From Lachnospiraceae bacterium (lineage in GTDB: Bacteria > Bacillota > Clostridia > Lachnospirales > Lachnospiraceae): DNA of 64,000 nt. Of the stretch, positions 10,693-27,734 are shown in pieces (the stretch's first letter is position 1; each line of letters opens with the position of its first letter). Under the pieces are notes generated by a model. It did no database searches. It saw only the letters and a program-made list of their open reading frames with translations, and was not told where the DNA came from. Both the position numbers and the translations under genes were made by a program. The stretch spans positions 1-64,000 of the forward strand of contig JAFZLD010000010.1 of NCBI GenBank assembly GCA_017553505.1, read 5' to 3'.

Positions 10693-12750
10693 ATGAAAAA
10701 TAAGATTAAAATCGAAGGTAGGCTGAAAAATTATCTTATGTCGGGATTGCTTCTCGGAATCCTTGCAGTGGTAGTTAATATATACATCTATACTGTTGAT
10801 GTCAGGGCAGGGCTTATTTTCACAGGCTTTGTTCTTCTTTATCTGGCTGTTCAGCTCGTTTTCTTTTTACGTGGTTCAAGGACGGTTTTCCGTGATATGG
10901 TGAATTTCGCTACTCAGTACGGCCAGGTTCAGAGTTCACTTCTTAAGAATCTCGATCTTCCCCATGCACTTCTTGATGAGTCCGGCAAGATTATCTGGAC
11001 GAATAATGCTTTTGAGCGCTTGCTCGGCGATGATAAAGAGTTAAATAAGACGGTTACTCATTATTTTCCCGCTATTACCAAGGACAAGCTTCCAGGCTCC
11101 GATGTGGATTTCAGCGAGAATGAGTTTGAGATTAAATATAACAGCAGCGAGTTTGTGGTTAAGCTTCGCAAGATTCCTCTCAAGGAAATGCTTGAGTCCA
11201 GTAACACTTTGGAAGTGGACGAGGATTACGAGGGATTCCTTGTTGCTATGTATATGTTTGATAATACGGCTTTGAAGTTAGCTTTGCGAGAGGTTGACGA
11301 CCAGAGCTTGTCGGTTGCACTTGTGTACATAGACAACTATGAAGAGGCTTTGGAGAGCGTCGAGGAAGTTCGCCGTTCGCTCCTTACCGCGCTTATTGAG
11401 AGAAAGATTAATAAGTACATGTCAGCTCTAGACGGTATTACCAAGAAGATTGAGAAGGATAAGTACATGGTTATCCTTCGCAAGAGCTGTATTGCCAAGC
11501 TTAAAGAGAATAAGTTTGATATCCTTGAAGATGTTAAGACCGTCAATATCGGTAACGAAATGGCTGTTACGCTGAGTATCGGTGTAGGTCTTGACGGTTT
11601 GTCATACGGACAGAATTACGAGTTTGCCAGAGCCGCTATCGATATGGCGCTTGGCCGTGGCGGTGACCAGGCAGTAGTTAAGACTCCCGATCAGTTATTA
11701 TACTTCGGAGGCAAGAGCCAGCAGGTTGAGAAGAATACAAGAGTTAAGGCTCGTGTTAAGGCTCACGCCCTTATGGAAATTATCTCGAGTAAGGATCAGG
11801 TATTTATCATGGGTCACAGACTCGGCGACGTAGACAGCTTCGGTGCCGCAGTCGGTGTTTATCGTATTGCTTCCGCACTTGAGAGAAAGGCTCATATCGT
11901 TCTCGATGAAATTACAGCGTCTATGAAGCCGCTTGTTGATATGTTTATCAATAATCCCGAGTTCCCTCAGGATATGATAATCGGTTGTCAGAAGGCGATT
12001 GATGAAATCGGGAATAATGCAGTTTTGATTGTTGTGGACGTTAATAAGCCCAGCATAACCGAGTGCCCCGAGCTCTTTGGTAAGTGTAAGTCTGTAGTGG
12101 TACTCGATCATCACAGACAGAGCGCCGAGCCTATTGAGAACGCTACACTTTCTTATGTAGAGCCTTACGCTTCATCGACTTGTGAAATGGTATCTGAAAT
12201 TCTGCAGTATACCACTGACAATATTAAGATTCGTCCCGAAGAGGCAGACAGTATGTATTCGGGTATCATTATCGATACCAATAACTTTACCCAGAAGACC
12301 GGCGTCAGAACCTTTGAAGCAGCCGCTTTCTTGCGCCGTAACGGAGCGGACGTTACACGTGTGCGTAAGCTCTTCAGAGAAGACGTTAATGAATATAAGG
12401 CCAGAGCCGACGCTGTCAGCCAGGCAGAGATTTACAAGACCAACTATGCTATTTCAGTGTGCGAGGCTGAGAACTGTGCAAGTCCTACCGTAGTAGGTGC
12501 TCAGGCGGCCAATGAACTCCTTAACATTAAGGGCGTTAAGGCAAGCTTCGTGCTTACTTATTACAACAATTTGGTATTTATCAGCGCACGTTCCATCGAT
12601 GAAGTCAACGTTCAGGTCATCATGGAGAAACTCGGCGGTGGCGGTCACATGAGCGTTGCGGGTGCACAGCTCAATGACACTACGGTTGATGATGCTATTT
12701 TACGATTGAAAGAAACCTTAGATACAATGATTACCGGAGGAGAGTTATAA
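10693..12750 (+). CDS. gdpP: GdpP-type cyclic-di-AMP phosphodiesterase
   Basis: This 685-residue membrane protein hydrolyses c-di-AMP to pApA. In order it has two N-terminal membrane segments (residues ~12-65), a PAS-like region (~80-150), a degenerate GGDEF domain without the GGDEF motif (~180-310), a DHH domain with VVLDHHR (near 470) and a DHHA1 domain with GGGGHMSVAGAQ (near 645). MGHRLGDVDSFGAAVG carries further metal ligands. GGAAGG upstream supports the ATG at 10693 over the TTG at 10633. The stop codon touches the rplI start, as is usual in Firmicutes. Confidence 0.95.
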   Translation: MKNKIKIEGRLKNYLMSGLLLGILAVVVNIYIYTVDVRAGLIFTGFVLLYLAVQLVFFLRGSRTVFRDMVNFATQYGQVQSSLLKNLDLPHALLDESGKIIWTNNAFERLLGDDKELNKTVTHYFPAITKDKLPGSDVDFSENEFEIKYNSSEFVVKLRKIPLKEMLESSNTLEVDEDYEGFLVAMYMFDNTALKLALREVDDQSLSVALVYIDNYEEALESVEEVRRSLLTALIERKINKYMSALDGITKKIEKDKYMVILRKSCIAKLKENKFDILEDVKTVNIGNEMAVTLSIGVGLDGLSYGQNYEFARAAIDMALGRGGDQAVVKTPDQLLYFGGKSQQVEKNTRVKARVKAHALMEIISSKDQVFIMGHRLGDVDSFGAAVGVYRIASALERKAHIVLDEITASMKPLVDMFINNPEFPQDMIIGCQKAIDEIGNNAVLIVVDVNKPSITECPELFGKCKSVVVLDHHRQSAEPIENATLSYVEPYASSTCEMVSEILQYTTDNIKIRPEEADSMYSGIIIDTNNFTQKTGVRTFEAAAFLRRNGADVTRVRKLFREDVNEYKARADAVSQAEIYKTNYAISVCEAENCASPTVVGAQAANELLNIKGVKASFVLTYYNNLVFISARSIDEVNVQVIMEKLGGGGHMSVAGAQLNDTTVDDAILRLKETLDTMITGGEL

Positions 12751-13200
12751 ATGAAAGTAATACTTTTGGAAGATGTTAAGGCCCTTGGCAAGAAGGGTCA
12801 GATTGTAGACGTTAACGACGGCTACGCAAGAAACTTTATTTTTAAGAAAAAGCTTGGTCTCGAGGCTACTCCGACCAATTTGAACAACTTAAAGCTTCAG
12901 AAAGCCAATGACGAAAAGATTGCCAAAGAAATCCTTGAGAAAGCCAAGGCTTTTGGCGAAGAGCTTGCTAAGCTTACTGTGGTTGTTAAGATGAAAGGCG
13001 GCGAAGGCGGAAGAGTATTCGGTTCTGTATCGAGCAAAGAAATTGCCGAAGAAGCCAAGAAACAGTTCGGCGTTGAAATCGACAAAAAGAAAATTGTTAT
13101 GGAAGAACCCATCAAATCCTTCGGCGCATACGAGCTTAATGTTAAGCTTCACCCCGAAGTTACTGCGAAACTTAGAGTTAAGGTAGAAGAGAATGGCTGA
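12751..13200 (+). CDS. rplI: 50S ribosomal protein L9
   Basis: This 149-residue L9 starts [16 protein letters not shown] with the typical [10 protein letters not shown] segment, a long connecting helix (~40-75) and a C-terminal domain with [21 protein letters not shown] sits inside the end of gdpP. The last 8 bases overlap the dnaB start, so gdpP, rplI and dnaB are translationally linked. Confidence 0.97.
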
Positions 13201-17883: not shown

Positions 17884-18132
17884 TTAGAATGACTCGTGGA
17901 ATGTACGAGAGATAACGTCTGCCTGCTGTTCGGGAGTTAACTTGATGAAGTTAACTGCGTATCCGGATACACGGATTGTAAGCTGAGGATAGTTCTCAGG
18001 ATGTGCCTGAGCGTCAATAAGAGTATCTCTGTTAAGTACATTTACATTAAGGTGATGACCACCCTTTGTTACATAACCGTCAAGTAAATGAACAAGGTTG
18101 TCAACCTGCTGTGTGTTAGCTACTGTTGCCAT
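17884..18132 (-). CDS. Stand-alone glycyl radical domain of pyruvate formate-lyase
   Basis: This 82-residue protein equals the C-terminal part of a normal [23 protein letters not shown], then [13 protein letters not shown] with the radical glycine at residue 57, ending [11 protein letters not shown]. It has its own ATG with AGGAGG 9 bases upstream. The main PFL protein (18385-20421) stops before this domain, so the active enzyme must form from two proteins, much as GrcA/YfiD can complement a damaged PFL in Escherichia coli. Here no intact copy is in the window. It resembles GrcA in size but its sequence is that of the missing PFL end. Confidence 0.9.
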
Positions 18133-18150
18133 TGTTATATTCCTCCTAAA

Positions 18151-18354
18151 TTATTCATAATCATCCAGACCCTGGTGAAGCGTAGGAACGCTGCAAGCAA
18201 GAGGGGTTCTGGAGCAGTCGGTGCATCCCATTGTCTGCACCGTCTTAGCCTTTTTGGCCTTCTCGTCGAAATCAACATTAACGTGTCCGACGCCTTTACT
18301 CATATCCTGATCAAGCATCTTAACAAGATCGTCAATCATGTCTTTTTCTTCCAA
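18151..18354 (-). CDS. Small PFL-associated protein with three cysteines
   Basis: This 67-residue protein lies between the PFL body and the radical-domain gene. Its first half (DDLVKMLDQDMSKGVGHVNV) resembles the start of the radical domain ([20 protein letters not shown]), so it looks like a partial duplicate. The second half differs: a lysine-rich stretch, then GCTDCSRTPLACSVPTLHQG with a CxxC-x6-C pattern and an acidic end. It has no glycine-radical motif. The start is taken as the TTG at 18354, with GGAGG 8 bases ahead; a GTG at 18363 overlaps that site. It may help assemble or regulate the split enzyme or bind metal; I do not recognise the family. Confidence 0.75.
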   Translation of the reverse strand: MEEKDMIDDLVKMLDQDMSKGVGHVNVDFDEKAKKAKTVQTMGCTDCSRTPLACSVPTLHQGLDDYE

Positions 18355-18384
18355 TGAGATCACCTCCTGTGTTATGTATAAGTC

Positions 18385-20421
18385 TTATTTTAAATCAAGA
18401 TCGATATCGCCTGCGAATACCTTATCTTCCTTACCGAGTGCGCCGGGGATAATAGTGAAGGTATTGGAGATACCATCCTGTGAATCCATGAAAGGAAGCT
18501 TAGCAACTGAGGAAAGGGAAGCAACTGCACCGTGAGTATCGCGGTTGTGCATCGGGTTAGCACCGGGAGCGAAAGGCTGTCCTTTTCTACGTCCGTCGGG
18601 TGTGTTACCTGTAGCCTTACCATAGGTTACGTTAGAGGTAATTGTAAGAACTGACATTGTAGGGAAGCCATCTCTGTAGGTGTGATGTCTTCTGATCATT
18701 GTCATGAACTTGTGAACAAGCTCGGTAGCGATGGAGTCTACACGGTCATCGTCGTTACCGTACTTAGGGAAGTCACCGGTGGTCTCGAAGTCAGTGATGA
18801 TACCGTCTTCGTCACGGATAACTTTAACCTTAGCGTACTTAATAGCGGAAAGTGAGTCAGCTACTACAGAAAGACCTGCCATACCTGTTGCGAAGTAACG
18901 GCGAACGTCTCTGTCGTGAAGAGCCATCTGTGCTCTCTCGTAGCAGTACTTATCGTGCATGTAGTGAATTACGTTAAGGGTATTTACATATACGTCAGCA
19001 AGCCATTCCATCATGTCGGTGTACTTAGCCATAACGTCATCGTAGTCAAGGTAGTCACCTTCTACAGGACGGTACTTAGGACCAACCTGCTTCTTGGTAA
19101 CTTCGTCAACACCGCCGTTAAGAGCGTAAAGAAGGCACTTAGCGAGGTTAGCACGAGCGCCGAAGAACTGCATTTCCTTACCGATTCTCATGGAGGATAC
19201 GCAGCAAGCGATGCCGTAATCATCACCGTGAGTTACACGCATAAGGTCGTCGTTCTCGTACTGGATGGAGCTTGACTGAATAGACATCTTAGCACAGAAC
19301 TTCTTGAAGTTCTGGGGAAGTCTGGTAGACCAAAGAACTGTAAGGTTGGGCTCGGGAGCGGAACCTAAGTTGGTCAAAGTGTGAAGGTAACGGAAGCTCA
19401 TCTTTGTTACCATGTGACGTCCGTCAACACCTACACCACCGATAGACTCGGTAACCCAAACGGGATCGCCTGCGAAAATCTGGTTGTATTCAGGTGTACG
19501 AGCGAACTTAACGCAACGAAGCTTCATGATGAAGTGATCTACGAATTCCTGGATCTGCTCCTCGGTGAAGGTTCCGTTTGCAAGGTCTCTCTCTGCGAAG
19601 CAGTCGATGAAGGTAGAGGTACGTCCAAGGGACATAGCTGCACCGTTCTGCTCCTTAACTGCTGAAAGGTAACCAAAGTAAGTAGCCTGAATAGCTTCCT
19701 GAACGTTGGAAGCGGGTTTGGAAATATCGCAACCGTAAGAAGCTGCCATTTCCTTCATCATCTTAAGAGCAACAATCTGCTCGGAGATTTCTTCACGAAG
19801 ACGGATAACATCATCTGTCATAACGCGTCCGGTGGAGTTCTTCTGTGCAAGCTTATCCTCGATAAGTCTGTCAATACCGTAAAGAGCGATACGTCTGTAG
19901 TCGCCAATGATACGTCCACGACCGTAAGCATCGGGAAGACCTGTGATTACGTGTGAAGAACGGCAAGCTCTCATCTCATCGTTGTAAGCATCGAAACATC
20001 CTGCGTTGTGTGTCTTTCTGTGTACAGAGAAGAACTCACTGATTTCAGGATCAACTGTGTAACCGTTATCGGCACATGCCTTCTCTGCCATACGGATACC
20101 GCCGTAAGGCTGCATGGAACGCTTGAAAGGCTTATCTGTCTGGAAACCTACGATTGTCTCCTTATTCTTGTCAAGATAGCCGGGGCCGTGAGAAGTGATA
20201 GTAGAGATAACCTTGGTATCCATATCAAGAACACCGCCTGCTTCTCTTTCCTTCTTCTGAAGGTCTAATACCATAGCCCATAAGTCTTTGGTGTTCTGTG
20301 TAGGACCTGCAAGGAAGGTGTCATCTCCGTCATAGGGATGATAGTTCTTCTGGATGAAATCACGTACGTTGATTTCATTCTCCCACTTGCCACCTACAAA
20401 ATCTTTCCATTCTGGTCTCAT
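18385..20421 (-). CDS. pflB: Pyruvate formate-lyase, main body lacking the radical domain
   Basis: This 678-residue protein covers the N-terminal ~90% of pyruvate formate-lyase, which turns pyruvate and CoA into acetyl-CoA and formate. Visible are [19 protein letters not shown], the adjacent catalytic cysteines in [15 protein letters not shown] (C406-C407), the pyruvate-binding RTSTFIDCF region and the late [20 protein letters not shown]. It ends after [17 protein letters not shown] and a short tail at a true TAA, before the RVSGY segment, which is a separate gene at 17884. AGGAGG precedes the ATG. A strong promoter lies upstream at 20514-20542. Confidence 0.94.
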
Positions 20422-21118: not shown

Positions 21119-21385
21119 ATGATTGAAGATATTGGCAGGAAGCCAGTAAGAGTATCTGAGGCGTGGAAGATAATTGATGGGTATGTTTACATGAATAGTT
21201 ATAGAAAAGTCATATTTAGCCGAAAACAGGCACAAATGTGGGAACTATTAGATGGAAATCATACAATACAAGAAATATATGATGAGCTCAGAGAGTTCGA
21301 TAAAGATGAGATAGATACATTTATAGAAGAGTGCTATAACGTTGGGTTTGTTGAAATGCTTGAGGAAGAGGAGTGGGAAATATAA
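21119..21385 (+). CDS. PqqD-like RiPP recognition element protein
   Basis: This 88-residue protein resembles stand-alone PqqD/RRE proteins, which bind the leader of a precursor peptide and present it to a modifying enzyme. Features are an opening beta-hairpin (RVSEAWKIIDGYVYMNS-like), then QAQMWELLDGNHTIQEIYDEL and a closing helix ending NVGFVEML, which is the winged-helix pattern of the family. GGGAGG lies 9 bases before the ATG. It is the first gene of the cluster, and its end touches the next start at 21385. The family call is from pattern recognition, without a profile search. Confidence 0.75.
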   Translation: MIEDIGRKPVRVSEAWKIIDGYVYMNSYRKVIFSRKQAQMWELLDGNHTIQEIYDELREFDKDEIDTFIEECYNVGFVEMLEEEEWEI

Positions 21386-21606
21386 TGGAGCTTAATAAAA
21401 TTGATGAATGTATGGGAAAAAGAGTAGTTATTACTACGATGGGTAATGTGAGCTATGCCGGAACTCTTGTTGAGGCGTATACGAATAAAAGGAAAGTTAA
21501 GGGATATTTTGTTGAGACGGACAGTTTGCTTGGAGTTTCTATTTGGTGCCCGACTACGTCGATAAAAGAATTGGTGTGTATTCCTATCGAGATTGAAGGA
21601 GAGTAA
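21385..21606 (+). CDS. Unknown small protein, possibly Sm-like beta barrel
   Basis: This 73-residue protein begins MELNKIDECMGKRVVITT. The pattern of a G-x-V-x-I strand, then YAGTLVEAY, a lysine-rich turn, GYFVETDSLLGVSIW and a last strand is like the small Sm/LSm or SH3-type barrels, but this is only a visual fold guess. It overlaps the preceding stop codon by one base, and the next gene begins 4 bases after it, so it is firmly inside the cluster. It has one conserved-looking Cys in IWCPTTSI. It may be an accessory factor or an immunity component. Confidence 0.6.
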   Translation: MELNKIDECMGKRVVITTMGNVSYAGTLVEAYTNKRKVKGYFVETDSLLGVSIWCPTTSIKELVCIPIEIEGE

Positions 21607-21610
21607 AGAG

Positions 21611-23005
21611 ATGGAAATGGGAAATAATATATTGGGGAGTAAGTATAAGTTTGATGATTTTATATATGAAAGGGTTTCAGAGGAGGCTGTAGTTGCGTAT
21701 AGAAAAAAATCCGCATATTGGATGTGTCTCAATAATTCGGGATACCGAATTTATAAGATGATTTCGGACGGATTGGCAGAGGATGATATTGTCAATCAGC
21801 TGACAGATTTTTATGAGATTCCGAGAGAGCATATTGAAAACGATTATAAGCAGATGAAAGAGGAACTGCAGTACAGATTAAATGAGTGTGAAGAGTTTGA
21901 AAAGAAGGAAAAGCAGGAAAAATCTCTGCGGGAATTGGAAAAGAGTGCGACCTTACATATAACTAATCGCTGTAATCTTAACTGTCCATATTGCTATAAG
22001 GATGCAAACAGTAATGCTAAAGAACTTAGCAAAGAGGATATTTTTAGAATAATAGATGAACTGGTGAGGCTTGGATTTAAGGAATTTATTTTTTCCGGCG
22101 GAGAGCCGACGATAAGACTGGATTTGTTTGAAATATTGGAAACTGTGCATGAGAAATATCCTGATTGCAGGTACAATTTGATAACAAACGGAACAACAGA
22201 TTTAGATGAAGCTCAAATCGATATTATGGTAAAGACGTTGTCGAATATCCAAATTTCTATCGACTCGTATGATGAGCGAGTTAATCAGAAGACCAGGGGT
22301 AGCGGTAGTTTGGCGAAGGTTGTTGAGTTGAGTAAAAAACTGGCTGCGAGAGAATTCAAGAAGTTTTATTTTGCTTGTGTTCCTTATACAAGCAGAATGG
22401 GTGAATTGGCAAATATAGACAGCGTTCCAAGATTGTTACGCCTGGCGGCGTATTCCGGTGCGAAGGGATTATATGTGAATGCACTTAAGCCCAATGGCAG
22501 AATGAGTCTTGATGAATATAGAAAGTATGATATTAAAGAATTCTGGAAGTGCATTGATGACTGCGAACAAGAAATGATTAACCTATACAACATAGGCTAC
22601 AGAGACCTGAGCCTATATGCTGCGGGCGATTTTAAGCATATTTTGGTTGATAGAAAACACAGGGACGGATGCAGCGCTGGAGTGGTTGAAATAGCAGTCG
22701 ATAATGATGGAAATGTTTATCCTTGCCCGGCATTAATGATTCCTGAATATTTGTTTGGAAATGTGTACAGTGACTCCATGGAAGATATTTATAAATCCAT
22801 GAGTGATGTCTTTGAAAAAATAAATGTAGATAACATGGCAAAGTGTAAAGATTGTACAGCAAGATACATTTGCGGTGGGGGATGTCGTTCGGTGGCGTAT
22901 ATGATGAATAATGACATTATGAGCATCGATCCCCATTGTGAAGAAGGGAAAAAAAGATTGAAAATGTGGCAGGCTATTTCGCTGAGAGTTCGGCCGTTGG
23001 GCTAA
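21611..23005 (+). CDS. Radical SAM/SPASM peptide maturase with N-terminal RRE
   Basis: This 464-residue enzyme has three parts. Residues ~10-90 form a PqqD-like recognition domain. A radical SAM core follows with CNLNCPYC (CxxxCxxC) near residue 122, FSGGEPT and NLITNGTT. The C-terminal SPASM domain, for extra Fe-S clusters, shows CSAGVVEIAVDNDGNVYPCP, then CKDCTARYICGGGCRS and a late HCEEGKKR. Such proteins form sactionine (S to C-alpha), ether or C-C crosslinks, or epimerise residues, in RiPP precursors. The start at 21611 has AAGGAG 9 bases upstream. With the precursor at 27387 holding two cysteines, thioether formation is the first hypothesis. Confidence 0.9.
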   Translation: MEMGNNILGSKYKFDDFIYERVSEEAVVAYRKKSAYWMCLNNSGYRIYKMISDGLAEDDIVNQLTDFYEIPREHIENDYKQMKEELQYRLNECEEFEKKEKQEKSLRELEKSATLHITNRCNLNCPYCYKDANSNAKELSKEDIFRIIDELVRLGFKEFIFSGGEPTIRLDLFEILETVHEKYPDCRYNLITNGTTDLDEAQIDIMVKTLSNIQISIDSYDERVNQKTRGSGSLAKVVELSKKLAAREFKKFYFACVPYTSRMGELANIDSVPRLLRLAAYSGAKGLYVNALKPNGRMSLDEYRKYDIKEFWKCIDDCEQEMINLYNIGYRDLSLYAAGDFKHILVDRKHRDGCSAGVVEIAVDNDGNVYPCPALMIPEYLFGNVYSDSMEDIYKSMSDVFEKINVDNMAKCKDCTARYICGGGCRSVAYMMNNDIMSIDPHCEEGKKRLKMWQAISLRVRPLG

Positions 23006-23026
23006 GAGAATCGGTGGGTGTATGGG

Positions 23027-24361
23027 ATGAAAATAGAAAGAGTAATGTATATAGTTCCGGCAGTTAAGCGAGAGTATAAGAAAGATATGAAAAATAAAGT
23101 AGGAGCGCCTCCTATAGGAGTGGGGCTGCTTTCTTCTTTCCTTAAACTGCATGGATATGTGGTGGAATTAATTGATATGTTTGTTGAGGATTATTCGCCA
23201 TCGGAAATCAAACAAAGGATTTCGGATTTTAATCCTGATGTTGTGGCAATCAGTGCTTCATTCACAGAATCCATATCTGTTGCTATGAATATAGCCGGAA
23301 TGGTTAAACGCAACTTTAAAGCAATAGTAATAGCTGGAGGGGTGCATACAACTTTTCTGCCAGAGGAAGTTCTTTCGCAGAACGTAGATTACGTTATATT
23401 AAATGAAGGTGAATCTACCACCATAAAACTTCTGGAATACCTCAAGGCAGATTGTAAAAAAGAAAAACTTGCTTCCCTACACAGTGTCGGATATAAGGAT
23501 GAGAAAGGGAACATGCATATCAACAGAATAAACGAGCCTTTGGAAGATCTTGATTCTTTGCCTATTTATGACTTTAGAGGGTTCAAAATGGAAAGATATG
23601 CCACACCTTTGGCGTTGATAACCAGCAGGGGGTGCCCGGGTGATTGTGTTTATTGTGCGTCCAGAGCTATGTTTGGAAAAAGGTATCGCTTAAGAAGTGC
23701 CGAGTCCATTATATCAGAAGCATATGTGCTGTATCAGTATGCCAGAGGAAGCAGTAGTATACTGCGGAATTATATGGCTATATATGATGATACATTTACG
23801 GCGCAGAGAGTCAGACTTAAAAAGTTTTGTAAGTACATGATTCAGACCGGCCTTAGCAAGAGGGTTGCCTGGAAGTGCGAATCGCGAATAGACATCCTTA
23901 ATGAAGAAATCTTGGTGCAGATGAAAGAATGCGGATGCATTGCGATTCATGTTGGTCTGGAAAGTACTAGTCAAGAGGTAATAAATTCGCTAAACAAGCA
24001 CATAAAGGTAGAAAAGATGGAAGAAGTTTTAGCACTGATGGCAAAACATCAAATTGAACCGTTGTGCTCGTTTATCATAGGAAATCATTCAGATACAAAG
24101 GAAACCCTTACTGCCACGATTGACTTTATCGAAAGAATACAAAAAAAGTATGGTGCATATGTTGCGGTATCGCCCAATACGCCGCTTCCCGGAACTGAAT
24201 TGTACAATAATCCGGAAAAATATGGAATAACTATAAAGTCAAATGCGTGGACTGACTATTCATTGTTGAAAGTAATAATCGACACATCAAATCTGACGCA
24301 GGATGAGATTAGAAATTTTTACGCCAAAGCGTCAGAGGTGATATCCAATAGAGAGGATTAA
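23027..24361 (+). CDS. B12-binding radical SAM protein
   Basis: This 444-residue protein has an N-terminal cobalamin-binding fold (PPIGVGLLSSFLKLHGYVVELID, then VVAISASFTESISVAMNIA and VIAGGVHTTFLPEEVL). The radical SAM core has TSRGCPGDCVYC and a typical downstream barrel (IYDDTFTAQ, HVGLESTSQEVI). Such enzymes often methylate unactivated carbons or phosphinates; in RiPP clusters they C-methylate core residues. It sits between the SPASM enzyme and the exporter, so the precursor peptide is the likely substrate. I chose the ATG at 23027; a GTG at 23018 is possible. Confidence 0.88.
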   Translation: MKIERVMYIVPAVKREYKKDMKNKVGAPPIGVGLLSSFLKLHGYVVELIDMFVEDYSPSEIKQRISDFNPDVVAISASFTESISVAMNIAGMVKRNFKAIVIAGGVHTTFLPEEVLSQNVDYVILNEGESTTIKLLEYLKADCKKEKLASLHSVGYKDEKGNMHINRINEPLEDLDSLPIYDFRGFKMERYATPLALITSRGCPGDCVYCASRAMFGKRYRLRSAESIISEAYVLYQYARGSSSILRNYMAIYDDTFTAQRVRLKKFCKYMIQTGLSKRVAWKCESRIDILNEEILVQMKECGCIAIHVGLESTSQEVINSLNKHIKVEKMEEVLALMAKHQIEPLCSFIIGNHSDTKETLTATIDFIERIQKKYGAYVAVSPNTPLPGTELYNNPEKYGITIKSNAWTDYSLLKVIIDTSNLTQDEIRNFYAKASEVISNRED

Positions 24362-24365
24362 ATTG

Positions 24366-25268
24366 ATGATTGAAATAGACAGACTCACTAAGCGATATAC
24401 ACTGAACGGAAAGAATGCTTTAGATAATCTTTCATACGTATCAGATACCGCGGCGCCACTTGGTATCATCGGGAGCAATGGGGCGGGAAAATCCACTCTG
24501 TTCATGCTTGCAAATGGATTAACAAAGCCGACAAGCGGAAAGATAAAGTTATTTGGGGAAGAGGTATTCGGGAATTCAAACGTAAAAAAAAGAACGGGTC
24601 TGTTTACTGATAAGTTAACTCTTTATCCTATGCTGACGGTTAAAGAAACGATTAGTTTTTTTATGGGCATATACGGAATATCCTTTAAGGAATACAAGGA
24701 AAAAGTAAGGTTGTTTCATATTGATGAGTTTGAGAATAGTAAGATTGAAGATTTGTCTACGGGTATGATGAAAAAAGTAATGCTTCTTATCAGTATTCTC
24801 CATACTCCGAGTATTTTATTCCTCGATGAACCTTTTTCGGGACTGGATGTTGACGCCAAAAATGATCTGAGTAAAGAAATTCGATATTTGTCAAATGAAG
24901 TTGGTATAAAAACAGTAATTTCGTCCCATGATCTTTGGGAAACGCAAGGAATCATCCAGGATGTTCTGATTATAGAAGGTGGCAGAAATATCGAATCGGG
25001 TAACTATCAGGAGTTGATAAAAAAATATTCGAAAACTAAGAAAATGCAGGTCATTTGTAAAAATGATCCGGAAATATTGAGATTAAGAGAAGACTATAGA
25101 ATGGAAGAAGAATACGGCAATATAAAAATAAGTATAGGGCTAGATGAGCTTCATGGTTTTCTTAGCAGAGTTCGTAGGGAAAATGTTATAAACATAATTA
25201 ATAATGATATGACGTTGGAAGATATTTATGAGGAGGCAAGGAAACATGCAGCTATTGGCAATGATTAA
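24366..25268 (+). CDS. ABC transporter ATP-binding protein
   Basis: This 300-residue ABC ATPase has Walker A GSNGAGKST near residue 37, the signature LSTGMMKKVML (SGQ-type loop weakly conserved), Walker B ILFLDEPFSGLD and the SSHD histidine. About 80 residues follow the nucleotide-binding domain, as in exporters of the drug/bacteriocin type. It overlaps the permease gene by 23 bases. It probably drives export of, or self-protection against, the cluster peptide. Confidence 0.9.
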   Translation: MIEIDRLTKRYTLNGKNALDNLSYVSDTAAPLGIIGSNGAGKSTLFMLANGLTKPTSGKIKLFGEEVFGNSNVKKRTGLFTDKLTLYPMLTVKETISFFMGIYGISFKEYKEKVRLFHIDEFENSKIEDLSTGMMKKVMLLISILHTPSILFLDEPFSGLDVDAKNDLSKEIRYLSNEVGIKTVISSHDLWETQGIIQDVLIIEGGRNIESGNYQELIKKYSKTKKMQVICKNDPEILRLREDYRMEEEYGNIKISIGLDELHGFLSRVRRENVINIINNDMTLEDIYEEARKHAAIGND

Positions 25269-26322
25269 AAAAGAAATCAAAGTTTTGTTTCGAAACAGAA
25301 TTCTGTTTTTTGCCAATGTTTTTATCCCGATAATGATAATTTTAATAAATATTATCTATACCGGCTCGGCAACTACTAATATCGTTATCGGGTTTTCGGG
25401 AGAAACGACGAAGAACGAAGAAATTATGTCTGCGCTGAATTCTATAAGAGAAGATATTAATTTTGCTGACAGAGAATTTGCTGATGAAGTAACGGCGCTG
25501 GAGGCATATGGGAAAGGAGAAACGGACTGTGTGCTTCATTCCACGGGAGGCGGGGTGTATACCGTCTATTATAAGGAAGGTAACCAACGGTCTGAAATAG
25601 CGTATCAGTTTGTGGTTGCTGCAATGCGAGAAATAAATGCCGCTTGTTATTCGCAAGAAGCATTGGAAGTAATACTGGCCAATCAGGAGGTTTCAATAAG
25701 TAAGGTTGTGAGCCAGCTTGCTCGGAATGAGGTTGATATGAACAGTATCATATGGGCGGGATTTATATGGATTTTCATATATTGTAATTTAAGTTTGTCT
25801 GTTAACCAAATGCAGCAGGAAAAGGCGACAAAAACTCTGTTATATATGTGTAAAGCTGGCGCGAGATGGCGAGATGTTTTTTTAGCAAAAAGTGTAGCCG
25901 GAATGGTTCAGTTTGTCGTAATCTTGGTGGCGTTTATTGTTACAACATGTTGTCTGAACTTACAAAGATACAGATTTTGGTTCGGTCAGATAGCGATATG
26001 GGCGTTGGCGTTTTTTTGTGTATACTCATTGGGGCATTTGCTGGGGACTTTGATTACCAATTCCGCTTTGCTCGTAGTTGTTCAGATGCTCATGGTATTT
26101 CCACTCATGATTATGAATTCTATGCAGTCATCGGTGTTTGATTCGATAATGAAGAATAATCCATTGTATTGCGCTATGACAATTGCAAAAAAAGCATTTC
26201 TCGCGGAGTGGCCCGCCATAGAGCATATTGCAGTGTGCGTTGTAACTGTACCAGCATGTTATTTGATTATATATCTTTATCTGTCAAAACGAGAACCGAT
26301 AAAGGTATGTAGAGTAAGATGA
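25246..26322 (+). CDS. ABC-2 type permease
   Basis: This 358-residue membrane protein has one N-terminal membrane segment (residues ~18-38), a ~150-residue extracytoplasmic region, then about five to six C-terminal membrane segments (from IIWAGFIWIFIYCN). That is the ABC-2 layout (NatB/YhaP-like) of peptide and antibiotic exporters. AAGGAAA precedes the ATG at 25246. It shares an ATGA overlap with the next gene. It pairs with the ATPase at 24366. Confidence 0.85.
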   Translation: MQLLAMIKKEIKVLFRNRILFFANVFIPIMIILINIIYTGSATTNIVIGFSGETTKNEEIMSALNSIREDINFADREFADEVTALEAYGKGETDCVLHSTGGGVYTVYYKEGNQRSEIAYQFVVAAMREINAACYSQEALEVILANQEVSISKVVSQLARNEVDMNSIIWAGFIWIFIYCNLSLSVNQMQQEKATKTLLYMCKAGARWRDVFLAKSVAGMVQFVVILVAFIVTTCCLNLQRYRFWFGQIAIWALAFFCVYSLGHLLGTLITNSALLVVVQMLMVFPLMIMNSMQSSVFDSIMKNNPLYCAMTIAKKAFLAEWPAIEHIAVCVVTVPACYLIIYLYLSKREPIKVCRVR

Positions 26323-27359
26323 TAAGTATAATGTTAAAAGAAGTGTTTTACAGAATTGTTCATGCGTTGATTCGTGTAGAGTTCCTGATTTATTATGCCC
26401 TTTCTTTGACCCTATTACTAAAAAAGGGAATGTCGACTTATTATGTGGCGTATACATTACTTATTGCGGTGATTTGTGATAATCTGAGCGTTTATACGCA
26501 TGAATTCGGGCACCTGCTATTGGGAAAGGTATCGGGATTTGAACTGTTTGATTTCAGAATCCCCTTTTTTTCCGCACAAAAAAGGAATTCAGGGTGGGAT
26601 ATACATTCAAACAAGGAAAGACAACACCGTTGCTATATGAAATCTAAAGAGAGTCACCTTTTTACAGAAAAGGCAGTTCTTTACTATTTGGGAGGTTCTT
26701 TGTGCAATTTCATTACAGCTGTGCTTGCGCTAGCTTTTTTTAAAAAGCATTTTTTGATATTCGGCGGGATAATCATATATGAGCTTTCGGTAGGGATACA
26801 AAACATAATTCCGAATTTAAAAAGAAATTATAATGATGGAACTGTTATCCGACTGTTGGTTACAGATAGGTACAACGGGGAACTTTTGCGGAGACAAATG
26901 GACATATTGTCGGATATTTTATTAAGTAAAACGTTGTCGGAAATAGAATGTATTGATGAAAATATTGAGGTGGAAAAAGAAAATGATTTGTCATTTTTTC
27001 TTAGAATGATGAAGGTATATTTAGAACTTGAAAGAGGGGATGCTATAAGGGCGGAAATACAAATCGGAGACATTGCGGCAAATATTTGTGACTATTCAAT
27101 TGATATGCAGAACAGATTTTTATGTGAAAAATTGTTTATATACTCTTTGAATAAAAGCCATGAAACGGAAAAAATATACGAGGAATACATGGCAACAAAA
27201 CCTCGAAAAGATTTGTATTATTACATTTCAATTTTGTGCTATGAAACAATGATATGTAAAAACCGGGAAAGAGAGGCCGGATTAAAAAAGATTCTTGAGC
27301 GGTCTATAAATGGTGAAGAAGATGATACGATATTGAGGTTAAAGCTTCGAATGCTTTAG
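26319..27359 (+). CDS. Site-2-protease-like (M50) membrane metallopeptidase
   Basis: This 346-residue protein has several membrane segments in its first half. The zinc motif is YTHEFGHLLLGK (HExxH) near residue 65, and a second motif NIIPNLKRNYNDG (the NxxP...DG pattern of M50 proteases) lies near residue 160-175. The C-terminal ~150 residues are soluble, helical and TPR-like. M50 proteins accompany radical SAM peptide clusters such as yydFGHIJ of Bacillus subtilis, where they are thought to process the peptide. It overlaps the permease by an ATGA and ends 27 bases before the precursor gene. Confidence 0.82.
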   Translation: MISIMLKEVFYRIVHALIRVEFLIYYALSLTLLLKKGMSTYYVAYTLLIAVICDNLSVYTHEFGHLLLGKVSGFELFDFRIPFFSAQKRNSGWDIHSNKERQHRCYMKSKESHLFTEKAVLYYLGGSLCNFITAVLALAFFKKHFLIFGGIIIYELSVGIQNIIPNLKRNYNDGTVIRLLVTDRYNGELLRRQMDILSDILLSKTLSEIECIDENIEVEKENDLSFFLRMMKVYLELERGDAIRAEIQIGDIAANICDYSIDMQNRFLCEKLFIYSLNKSHETEKIYEEYMATKPRKDLYYYISILCYETMICKNREREAGLKKILERSINGEEDDTILRLKLRML

Positions 27360-27386
27360 TCATATTTTTAGAAAGGAGGTATATGC

Positions 27387-27599
27387 ATGGAAATGCAAAA
27401 AAAAGAATTGTATTTCAGCCCTACTGTATCCGGAAGTATGTCGTCGCTTGCTTCGGATAAAGATTATGGAAACTGCATTACGGCCAGAGATTGCGCTACT
27501 GCTTTCGGCGTTGTAGGCGTTATTGTTATTGGCGGTGCAGCGATAGCATTGGGCGCAGTTACAGGTGGCGCAGCAATACCTGCATTGGCTGTTGCTTAA
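27387..27599 (+). CDS. Candidate RiPP precursor peptide
   Basis: This 70-residue peptide has a polar first ~35 residues (charged start, YFSPTVSGSMSSLASDKDYG) that would serve as the leader. Then come two cysteines in NCITARDCATAF (residues 29 and 35) and a strongly hydrophobic Gly/Ala/Val/Ile tail (VVGVIVIGGAAIALGAV, then TGGAAIPALAVA). There is no charged residue after D34. AAAGGAGGT lies 8 bases before the ATG, one of the best ribosome sites in the cluster, which fits high expression of a substrate. The cut site is unknown. The Cys-then-hydrophobic layout resembles sactipeptides and circular bacteriocins, but I recognise no close family. Confidence 0.8.
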   Translation: MEMQKKELYFSPTVSGSMSSLASDKDYGNCITARDCATAFGVVGVIVIGGAAIALGAVTGGAAIPALAVA

Positions 27600-27625
27600 C
27601 TGAATCAATCTGACAAAAGGATTGG

Positions 27626-27660
27626 CAAGACTCCACCGGTTAAACGCCGGTGGAGTCTTG
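27626..27660 (+). terminator. Strong hairpin closing the RiPP cluster
   Basis: A perfect 14-bp stem, CAAGACTCCACCGG / CCGGTGGAGTCTTG, with a 7-base loop, starts 26 bases after the precursor stop. No T tract follows, so it may be a message-stabilising 3' end rather than a simple terminator. Confidence 0.65.
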
Positions 27661-27734
27661 CTGCTATATTATAGAGGAATCGGATAATATTGGCTTTGAT
27701 ACAAATAGGCATAATATTATTTATAGAAAGTTTA

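Follow-up and report, generated by a model that had tools for sequence, protein, structure and literature searches.

An eight-gene operon of a Lachnospiraceae bacterium as a candidate RiPP system with two radical SAM enzymes and a small protein that follows the B12-binding one

Does the row of genes at positions 21,119 to 27,660 of contig JAFZLD010000010.1 from a Lachnospiraceae bacterium (assembly GCA_017553505.1) encode a new kind of ribosomally synthesised and post-translationally modified peptide (RiPP), and which of its genes would act together on the peptide? The stretch analysed, hereafter the window, comprises positions 1 to 64,000 of the forward strand of this contig. A first-pass annotation, made from the sequence alone, had described eight tightly packed genes of one strand, with a putative precursor placed last and preceded by the best ribosome site, and had proposed a candidate RiPP system of a gene set that it did not recognise. 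Eight open reading frames (ORFs) with zero internal stops were indeed found at 21119-27599 on the plus strand, with intergenic gaps of -23 to +27 bases, and the longest Shine-Dalgarno-like stretch of the operon, as judged by eye, lies upstream of the peptide gene (AAAGGAGG). An encoded leader and core peptide beside modifying enzymes, the hallmark of a RiPP, is present by sequence. The operon is most likely a RiPP system, a variant with a new gene set, and its 70-residue ORF is the best candidate for the precursor. What the sequence shows directly is its gene content and motifs, the return of a four-gene core next to similar peptides in other loci, and the link of a small 73-residue protein to one clade of B12-binding radical S-adenosylmethionine (SAM) enzymes.

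Families and motifs agree with the two radical SAM enzymes, the ATP-binding cassette (ABC) pair and the M50 protease of the first-pass annotation. The SPASM radical SAM enzyme (gene 3) carries Radical_SAM, SPASM and N-terminal PqqD domains, each above its Pfam cut-off, and this PqqD domain provides, by sequence, a predicted leader-binding RiPP recognition element (RRE). The B12-binding radical SAM enzyme (gene 4) matched Pfam B12-binding at 1.9e-21 and Radical_SAM at 2.8e-15. Both enzymes have the CxxxCxxC motif (CNLNCPYC and CPGDCVYC, respectively), and the SPASM region holds seven cysteines (354, 372, 412, 415, 421, 425 and 443), which together with a Cys-bearing core is the sequence pattern of sactipeptides and ranthipeptides. 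The M50-type protease (gene 7) matched Pfam M50 at E 6e-5, below the cut-off; its sequence contains HEFGH at residue 61 and, further on, an N...DG motif (NIIPNLKRNYNDG) at 162. The match of the permease to the SagH-like NCBIfam family (6.6e-7) was also below cut-off. The RRE label had been given both to gene 1 and to the SPASM enzyme; it holds for the latter, and for gene 1 Pfam PqqD reached only E 0.0012, below the cut-off, yet the protein aligned with a PqqD-like protein of Lachnotalea at 38% identity over 61 aa (E 2e-13, a single comparison). With corrected starts, the small-protein gene may begin at ATG 21385 and the SPASM gene may begin at ATG 21611. PHROGs returned no match for genes 1, 2, 7 or the peptide.

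Relatives were sought through the B12-binding enzyme in 397, 392, 391, 115 and 188 genomes (overlapping draws) and in two scans of GTDB contigs, and through the small protein in 246 and 204 genomes. The B12-binding enzyme is rare: it was matched in 5 of 397 family genomes (E 1e-40), 7 of 392 order genomes (E 1e-50) and, using its alignment A1, 8 of 391 class genomes (E 1e-90), the own genome being counted each time, and the own genome has no near paralogue of it (next best 26% identity, E 4e-16). The scan of GTDB contigs with the single protein revealed no close relatives, and that with alignment A1 gave 20 loci. Among plasmids, the B12-binding and SPASM enzymes matched 30 and 13 records, all below 60% identity and the listed ones at about 30% or less, and the Lachnotalea small protein and the window M50 protein matched none; one weak match to the B12-enzyme alignment was obtained from viral contigs. 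Gene neighbourhoods were tabulated for 32 loci including the window (loci carry L numbers below and genomes G numbers), omitting L028 and L041 (contigs of L021 and L024), L039 and L043 (short), a relic (L063) and a viral locus (L065). A core of PqqD-like protein, B12-binding enzyme, small protein and SPASM enzyme was present in the window and in eight other loci (L022, L023, L024, L026, L030, L031, L059 and L092). In these eight, the core genes are preceded by one for a short candidate precursor, and in the window the precursor gene comes last; the precursors carry [LIV][LIFY]xxP close to the N-terminus and a stretch rich in Gly, Ala, Val and Ile, both of which the window peptide shows. The core loci include Lachnotalea glycerini (L030), Petralouisia muris (L031), a Vallitalea metagenome-assembled genome (MAG; L024, the same contig as L041, with L023 nearly identical) and an Acetobacteraceae MAG (L026), possibly mis-binned, whose 10-kb contig ends within the SPASM gene. 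In L092 the order is SPASM enzyme, PqqD-like protein, B12-binding enzyme and small protein, followed by a C39-match membrane protein, an ABC ATPase and, in the position of the permease, a 482-residue protein with no Pfam match; this locus thus mirrors the window operon with a different protease. The exact eight-gene set was met in none of the neighbourhoods reached through either search.

To which core enzyme does the small protein belong? In a tree of 39 B12-enzyme rows from 31 loci (L045, a weak match, was tabulated and kept out of it, and L092 was found after it was built), 17 rows from 13 loci including the window formed a clade with support 100/99. The small protein, scored by profile (E 1e-3, ORFs of at least 35 aa, within the stretches available per locus), was present in all 13 clade loci against none of the 18 other tree loci. 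This label requires 3 changes on the tree, as compared to a mean of 12.1 in shuffles, and 0 of 500 shuffles gave as few; two clade rows, in L026 and L059, are second copies of the enzyme without an adjacent small protein. The clade loci had been found through the B12-binding enzyme and not through the small protein. Nine of the 13 had contributed rows to the small-protein profile (A2), whose own finds are L024 (a near copy of L023), L058, L059 and L061. When the search was begun from the small protein, 5 of 246 order genomes (E 1e-3) and 2 of 204 phylum genomes (E 1e-6) were matched, own genome included; the matches in G470, G548 and G561 are loci already found through the enzyme, and a new one in G1268 (L092, E 3.6e-10) again lies beside a B12-binding enzyme, a PqqD-like protein and a SPASM enzyme. 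Since five clade loci (L011, L012, L034, L058 and L061) have the small protein and the B12-binding enzyme with no SPASM match at E 1e-6, the constant neighbour of the small protein is the B12-binding enzyme and not the SPASM enzyme. The small protein, which carries two repeats in L012 and L061, is probably a dedicated partner of this clade. Neither this association nor the daptide-type relatives discussed below had been part of the first-pass annotation. It is an even bet that the family is a new accessory protein and obligate partner, and that enzyme and partner form a tailoring pair transferable between phyla and between unrelated RiPP classes (radical SAM peptides, daptide-type peptides and LanM lanthipeptides), the window operon being a stripped-down eight-gene system.

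Two clade loci deserve mention in their own right. In L058 (1736-10878) the small protein and B12-binding enzyme lie beside a LanM-type enzyme (DUF4135 and LANC_like), a C39 ABC transporter and a 797-aa protein with no Pfam match at E 0.01, forming a radical SAM-tailored cluster of lanthipeptide type. In L034 (Ruminiclostridium hungatei) three clade B12-binding enzyme genes stand in a row, with small-protein-family matches at 11301-11540 and 12906-13136.

In the 70-residue peptide, a polar leader (LYFSP at 8-12) is followed by Cys30 and Cys36 and by a hydrophobic tail at 38-70; the C-terminal residue is Ala. The tail has one Phe and zero Tyr/Trp and is 88% G/A/V/I/L, a share that none of the other ORFs of 40-130 residues in the window (of 328) attains over its own C-terminal 33 residues; the GC content at third codon positions, 0.338, is operon-like. 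A profile of 11 non-window precursors ranked the peptide first among 494 window ORFs (433 scored), with 12.8 bits as compared to 11.5 for the next. The leader motif [LIV][LIFY]xxP was present within the first 18 residues of 12 of 12 non-window core-locus precursors and of the window peptide (LYFSP at 8); none of the 3 precursors examined from loci that lack part of the core (L021, L029 and L034) has it. Its background was 29 of 494 window ORFs and 71 of 10,000 shuffles of the window leader. The motif admits exactly the letters that occur in the non-window peptides, and it was written after all peptides had been viewed. Three precursors were trimmed to an inner Met, and those of L023 and L024 are nearly alike and not independent. 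Conservation beside these enzymes, on which the first-pass proposal had been made to depend, was absent in plain alignment, there being no close intact operon, and took the form of the same layout and leader motif in eight other loci. A search of plasmids and viral contigs with the peptide found none.

Table 1. Genes and terminator of the operon, with window positions and the evidence for each assignment.
Feature	Position	Strand	Evidence
PqqD-like protein, 88 aa, candidate stand-alone RiPP recognition element	21119..21385	+	Weak Pfam PqqD match; Lachnotalea homologue
Small 'Sm-like' protein, 73 aa, proposed partner of the B12-binding radical SAM enzyme	21385..21606	+	Family A2; clade tracking
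SPASM radical SAM enzyme, 464 aa, N-terminal PqqD domain	21611..23005	+	Pfam; motifs; SPASM tree
B12-binding radical SAM enzyme, 447 aa	23018..24361	+	Pfam; CPGDCVYC; tree clade
ABC transporter ATPase, 300 aa	24366..25268	+	Pfam ABC_tran 5.5e-23
ABC-2 type permease, 358 aa	25246..26322	+	Pfam ABC2_membrane_3 1.3e-12
M50-type membrane metalloprotease, 346 aa	26319..27359	+	Weak Pfam M50 match; HEFGH
Candidate RiPP precursor peptide, 70 aa	27387..27599	+	Leader motif; tail; profile rank
Intrinsic terminator	27623..27663	+	18-pair stem; perfect 15-nt inverted repeat 27625-27661

How would these proteins work together? We infer each reaction, the order of the steps, the binding of the leader and the activity of the product, with the chemistry, the removal of the leader by M50 and the export by ABC taken from analogy with the enzyme families. 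The PqqD-like protein and the SPASM enzyme's own PqqD domain would both bind the leader, which has LYFSP near its start. SPASM enzymes can form thioethers, C-C bonds or epimers; the one in the window would act around Cys30/Cys36, where a thioether is most likely and epimerisation is the alternative. In the Gly/Ala/Val/Ile-rich core, C-methylation is the most likely change that the B12-binding enzyme, helped by its 73-residue partner, would make. At the membrane the M50 protease would then cut off the leader; export of the product, probably a membrane-active peptide, or immunity would fall to the ABC-2 transporter. That the operon makes and exports a RiPP through these SPASM, B12-enzyme-and-partner, M50 and ABC steps has, in our estimate, a probability of about 0.78.

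Several observations weigh against this proposal. No intact close relative of the eight-gene operon was met in the searched genomes and contigs, and the family matches of genes 1, 2 and 7 are all below Pfam cut-offs. In the SPASM tree, which also drew on five plasmid records, the window enzyme joins seven other small-protein-adjacent SPASM enzymes with support no higher than 83/88. For the PqqD-like protein of L092 the match is weak (E 1.1e-4, the sole one among 162 ORFs, and none in Pfam), the leader motif was written by eye, and the precursors of L026, L059 and L092 were chosen by eye among small ORFs. That these peptides share a thioether does not hold generally: the sole Cys of one Lachnotalea precursor (L030b) falls within its leader region, and only a single Cys is present in the L092 peptide. 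The profile score of the window peptide was equalled by 6 of 5000 full shuffles and by 1129 of 5000 shuffles that kept leader and tail apart; the score against the best single precursor of 15, that of L092, was reached by 14 full and 181 layout-keeping shuffles, out of 2000 of each kind. Because layout-keeping shuffles often score equally, the likeness of the peptide to other precursors seems to be one of layout, with descent unproven; homology at the residue level was tested with both kinds of shuffle and rejected, and layout and leader motif alone stand. Finally, a weak small-protein match in G602 (E 3e-4) has no B12-binding enzyme nearby. That match, which contains an internal stop and has no B12-binding enzyme, PqqD-like or SPASM gene in the 12 kb examined, was treated as chance.

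The best surviving alternative, possible if rather unlikely, takes the SPASM enzyme as an epimerase and the B12-binding enzyme as a C-methyltransferase, which would yield an epimerised, methylated, hydrophobic channel-like peptide in the style of polytheonamide and the epipeptides. The polytheonamide core is rich in Val, Ala and Gly, as the window core is in Val, Ile, Ala and Gly. In the available parts of its description, this proteusin joins a radical SAM epimerase to C-methylation by a B12-binding radical SAM enzyme, together with a long nitrile-hydratase-like leader and many more modifications; neither of the last two was seen in the window, where Pfam gave nothing for the peptide at E 1 and no nitrile-hydratase-like leader was found. 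The yydFGHIJ epipeptide locus, as far as its partial description goes, groups a short peptide with a radical SAM enzyme, a membrane protease and ABC genes; protease and ABC genes are both present in the window (M50 below cut-off, HExxH present). Unlike the window, that locus is described there with one radical SAM enzyme, an epimerase, and with no B12-binding enzyme, PqqD-like or partner gene named. Against this alternative, the YydG family (TIGR04078) was absent among the best 25 of 101 NCBIfam families matching the SPASM enzyme, the leader has no Pfam match, and Cys30/Cys36 suggest a thioether. The StsB and PapB families matched the SPASM enzyme far below their cut-offs.

A cross-link or another non-methylating change by the B12-binding enzyme is less probable again. 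In the sections available, B12-binding radical SAM enzymes of RiPPs are described as methylating or cross-linking (PMC11117315, PMC12257519), and PbsB, one such enzyme, makes a C-C cross-link between two aromatic side chains (PMC12257519). The window tail, with its single Phe, offers no such aromatic pair, and ApyD, the third-best family match of the window enzyme, far below that family's cut-off, methylates a beta carbon according to the part of its description available (PMC11117315). On these two grounds C-methylation is favoured.

Could the 73-residue protein be an RNA-binding Sm protein, as its first label 'Sm-like' implied, or be unrelated to the peptide chemistry? Pfam LSM did match it at E 0.0048, below the cut-off. 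The same family was matched by only 1 of 10 small-protein family members at E 0.1, and no LSM match was found in the own genome at E 0.01. A PDB profile search gave one chance-level match (E 0.22), and hhalign of the family against five clean clostridial Hfq proteins gave a probability of 0.1%, a comparison with no positive control; it replaced an earlier round with an ORF from 7 of 14 Hfq loci, two of which were wrong or over-long. Since the protein also tracks one B12-enzyme clade across RiPP classes, we consider this alternative improbable; Sm/Hfq membership was rejected, as nothing convincing was obtained for it, and the label is not secure. A precedent for the preferred reading, a partner of the B12-binding enzyme, is given by the clavusporins, where, in the part of the report available, such an enzyme works with DUF5825 in C-methylation (PMC12257519). 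The window likewise pairs a RiPP B12-binding radical SAM enzyme with a separate protein; DUF5825 is another named family than the window small protein, and the pair is known here from that partial description.

It is similarly doubtful that the 70-residue ORF is no substrate at all, being spurious or a separate bacteriocin, with the true substrate encoded elsewhere. The weak residue-level similarity to other precursors would fit such a view, and the good Shine-Dalgarno stretch, the terminator directly after the ORF, the leader motif and the unique tail argue against it.

How, then, does the operon relate to the daptides? Nine of the 13 clade loci (L011, L012, L022, L023, L024, L030, L031, L034 and L061) lie in radical SAM daptide-type clusters of Bacillota, which have, as the window, a B12-binding enzyme of the same clade and the small protein; five of these (L022, L023, L024, L030 and L031) also share with it the PqqD-like protein, the SPASM enzyme and short precursors with the leader motif and a G/A/V tail. 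These clusters add an aminotransferase and a methyltransferase, and their examined precursors end in Thr; the window has neither enzyme and its peptide ends in Ala. The aminotransferases and methyltransferases of L030 and L011, and the M50-type protein of L011, had daptide families as their best NCBIfam matches, below the curated cut-offs. By tblastn (E 1e-5), homologues of both enzymes were found in each of the nine loci and an SDR additionally in L011, L012, L034 and L061, and both enzymes were absent from L026, L058, L059 and L092. The same search, covering the window alone, found in its 64 kb no homologue of the L030/L011 aminotransferases or methyltransferases or of the L011 SDR. Precursors end in Thr in L022, L023, L024, L030, L031 and L034, and also in L059 and L026, which are without daptide-type enzymes in the 20 kb and 10 kb of sequence available, respectively; a C-terminal Thr alone is thus no proof of a daptide. 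The features of the class, in the parts of the defining report available, are an oxidative decarboxylase, an aminotransferase and an invariant C-terminal Thr, and these parts mention daptide subgroups with radical SAM enzymes and do not describe the core found here (PMC10036551); in what was available of a second paper, the sole relevant match stood in the reference list (PMC12338566). Membership of the window operon in the daptide class, for which the shared clade, the similar tail, the six Thr-ending clade loci and those subgroups might speak, was rejected as extremely improbable, the defining genes being absent from the 64 kb of the window and the peptide ending in Ala. The window operon thus shares its modification core with daptide-type clusters without the genes that define daptides.

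Large proteins in three daptide-type clusters (L011 10697-12244, L012 1935-4196 and L033 14071-15633) show, by eye, SPASM-like cysteines and a PqqD-like end. NCBIfam gave nothing at 1e-10 for those of L011 and L033, nor did Pfam at 0.01 for those of L011 and L012. They are possibly the Bacillota counterpart of the daptide RRE-DUF protein.

A sister clade of B12-binding enzymes (L021/L028, L027, L029 and L032) resembles the window in having a PqqD-like protein, the B12-binding enzyme, an M50-like membrane protein (by eye), ABC genes and a short peptide with Cys and a hydrophobic stretch, and differs from it in having no SPASM match, no small partner protein and a MKYEKP-type leader. The peptides of L021, L027, L029 and L032 are all of this leader type, with one Cys and a hydrophobic tail, and L033, which falls in this clade too, has a YcaO protein and daptide-type enzymes in addition.

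Where might the operon have come from? It is AT-rich, its 2-kb bins having G+C fractions of 0.372-0.397 as compared to 0.414-0.512 (median 0.463) in the other 28 window bins, which suggests acquisition by transfer. In G867, a genome of another family of the same class, we found a decayed copy of the second half of the operon (L063, 6234-9480, minus strand), adjoining 23S and 5S rRNA genes and tRNA-Asn. The genes of this relic follow the order of the window: of the B12-binding enzyme the C-terminal 251 residues are left, at 62.6% identity, the ABC ATPase comes next with 43.8% identity over 299 aa, then the permease with 29.8%, and the M50 gene at the end is truncated. The PqqD-like protein, small protein, SPASM enzyme and peptide were not found in the 13.5 kb available. 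Among 115 genomes of its family and 188 of its order the relic alone was met, with no intact copy. The order of B12-binding enzyme, ABC ATPase, permease and M50 protease is thus not private to the genome of the window, which suggests transfer between families. The operon is flanked by a pyruvate formate-lyase gene on the opposite strand on one side and by a DUF1858 gene on the other. A search near the operon for a cobalamin riboswitch or other Rfam families gave one chance-level match and otherwise nothing, and the upstream repeats amount to a single 16-nt pair.

The operon is rare and undescribed in the searchable literature: this core was not described in the literature searched, which consisted mostly of titles and the beginnings of abstracts, with subscription papers largely missing. 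B12-dependent radical SAM enzymes are wanted for chemistry on unreactive carbons and are hard to obtain in active form in other hosts. Of greatest interest is the probable partner protein of the B12-enzyme clade. A small protein that accompanies the whole clade in several RiPP classes could be a missing part for enzyme activity. With eight genes and one short peptide, the window operon is a compact place to test the enzyme-partner pair, and it adds a RiPP variant to the known kinds.

Some further features were noted. The own genome has a second RiPP-like locus (L085, G000:C1:93000-112900) with nine radical SAM matches in about 14 kb (95962-109862), of which six of about 300 aa are near tandem and two of about 560 aa are distantly like the window B12-binding enzyme; the locus also encodes an ABC pair and, at 41.9 bits against a cut-off of 40, an Os1348-family NHLP peptide. 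In L062 (4464-6134, minus strand) one 556-aa protein is a B12-binding radical SAM enzyme with a PqqD domain fused at its N-terminus. The pyruvate formate-lyase next to the operon (17884-20421, minus strand) is split: a 678-aa ORF holds the lyase domain and only the first half of Gly_radical (profile 1-51), and a separate 82-aa ORF at 17884-18132, with its own AGGAGG, holds the second half (49-106) with RVSGYAV. Between the two pieces lies a 70-aa ORF (18151-18363), also with its own AGGAGG.

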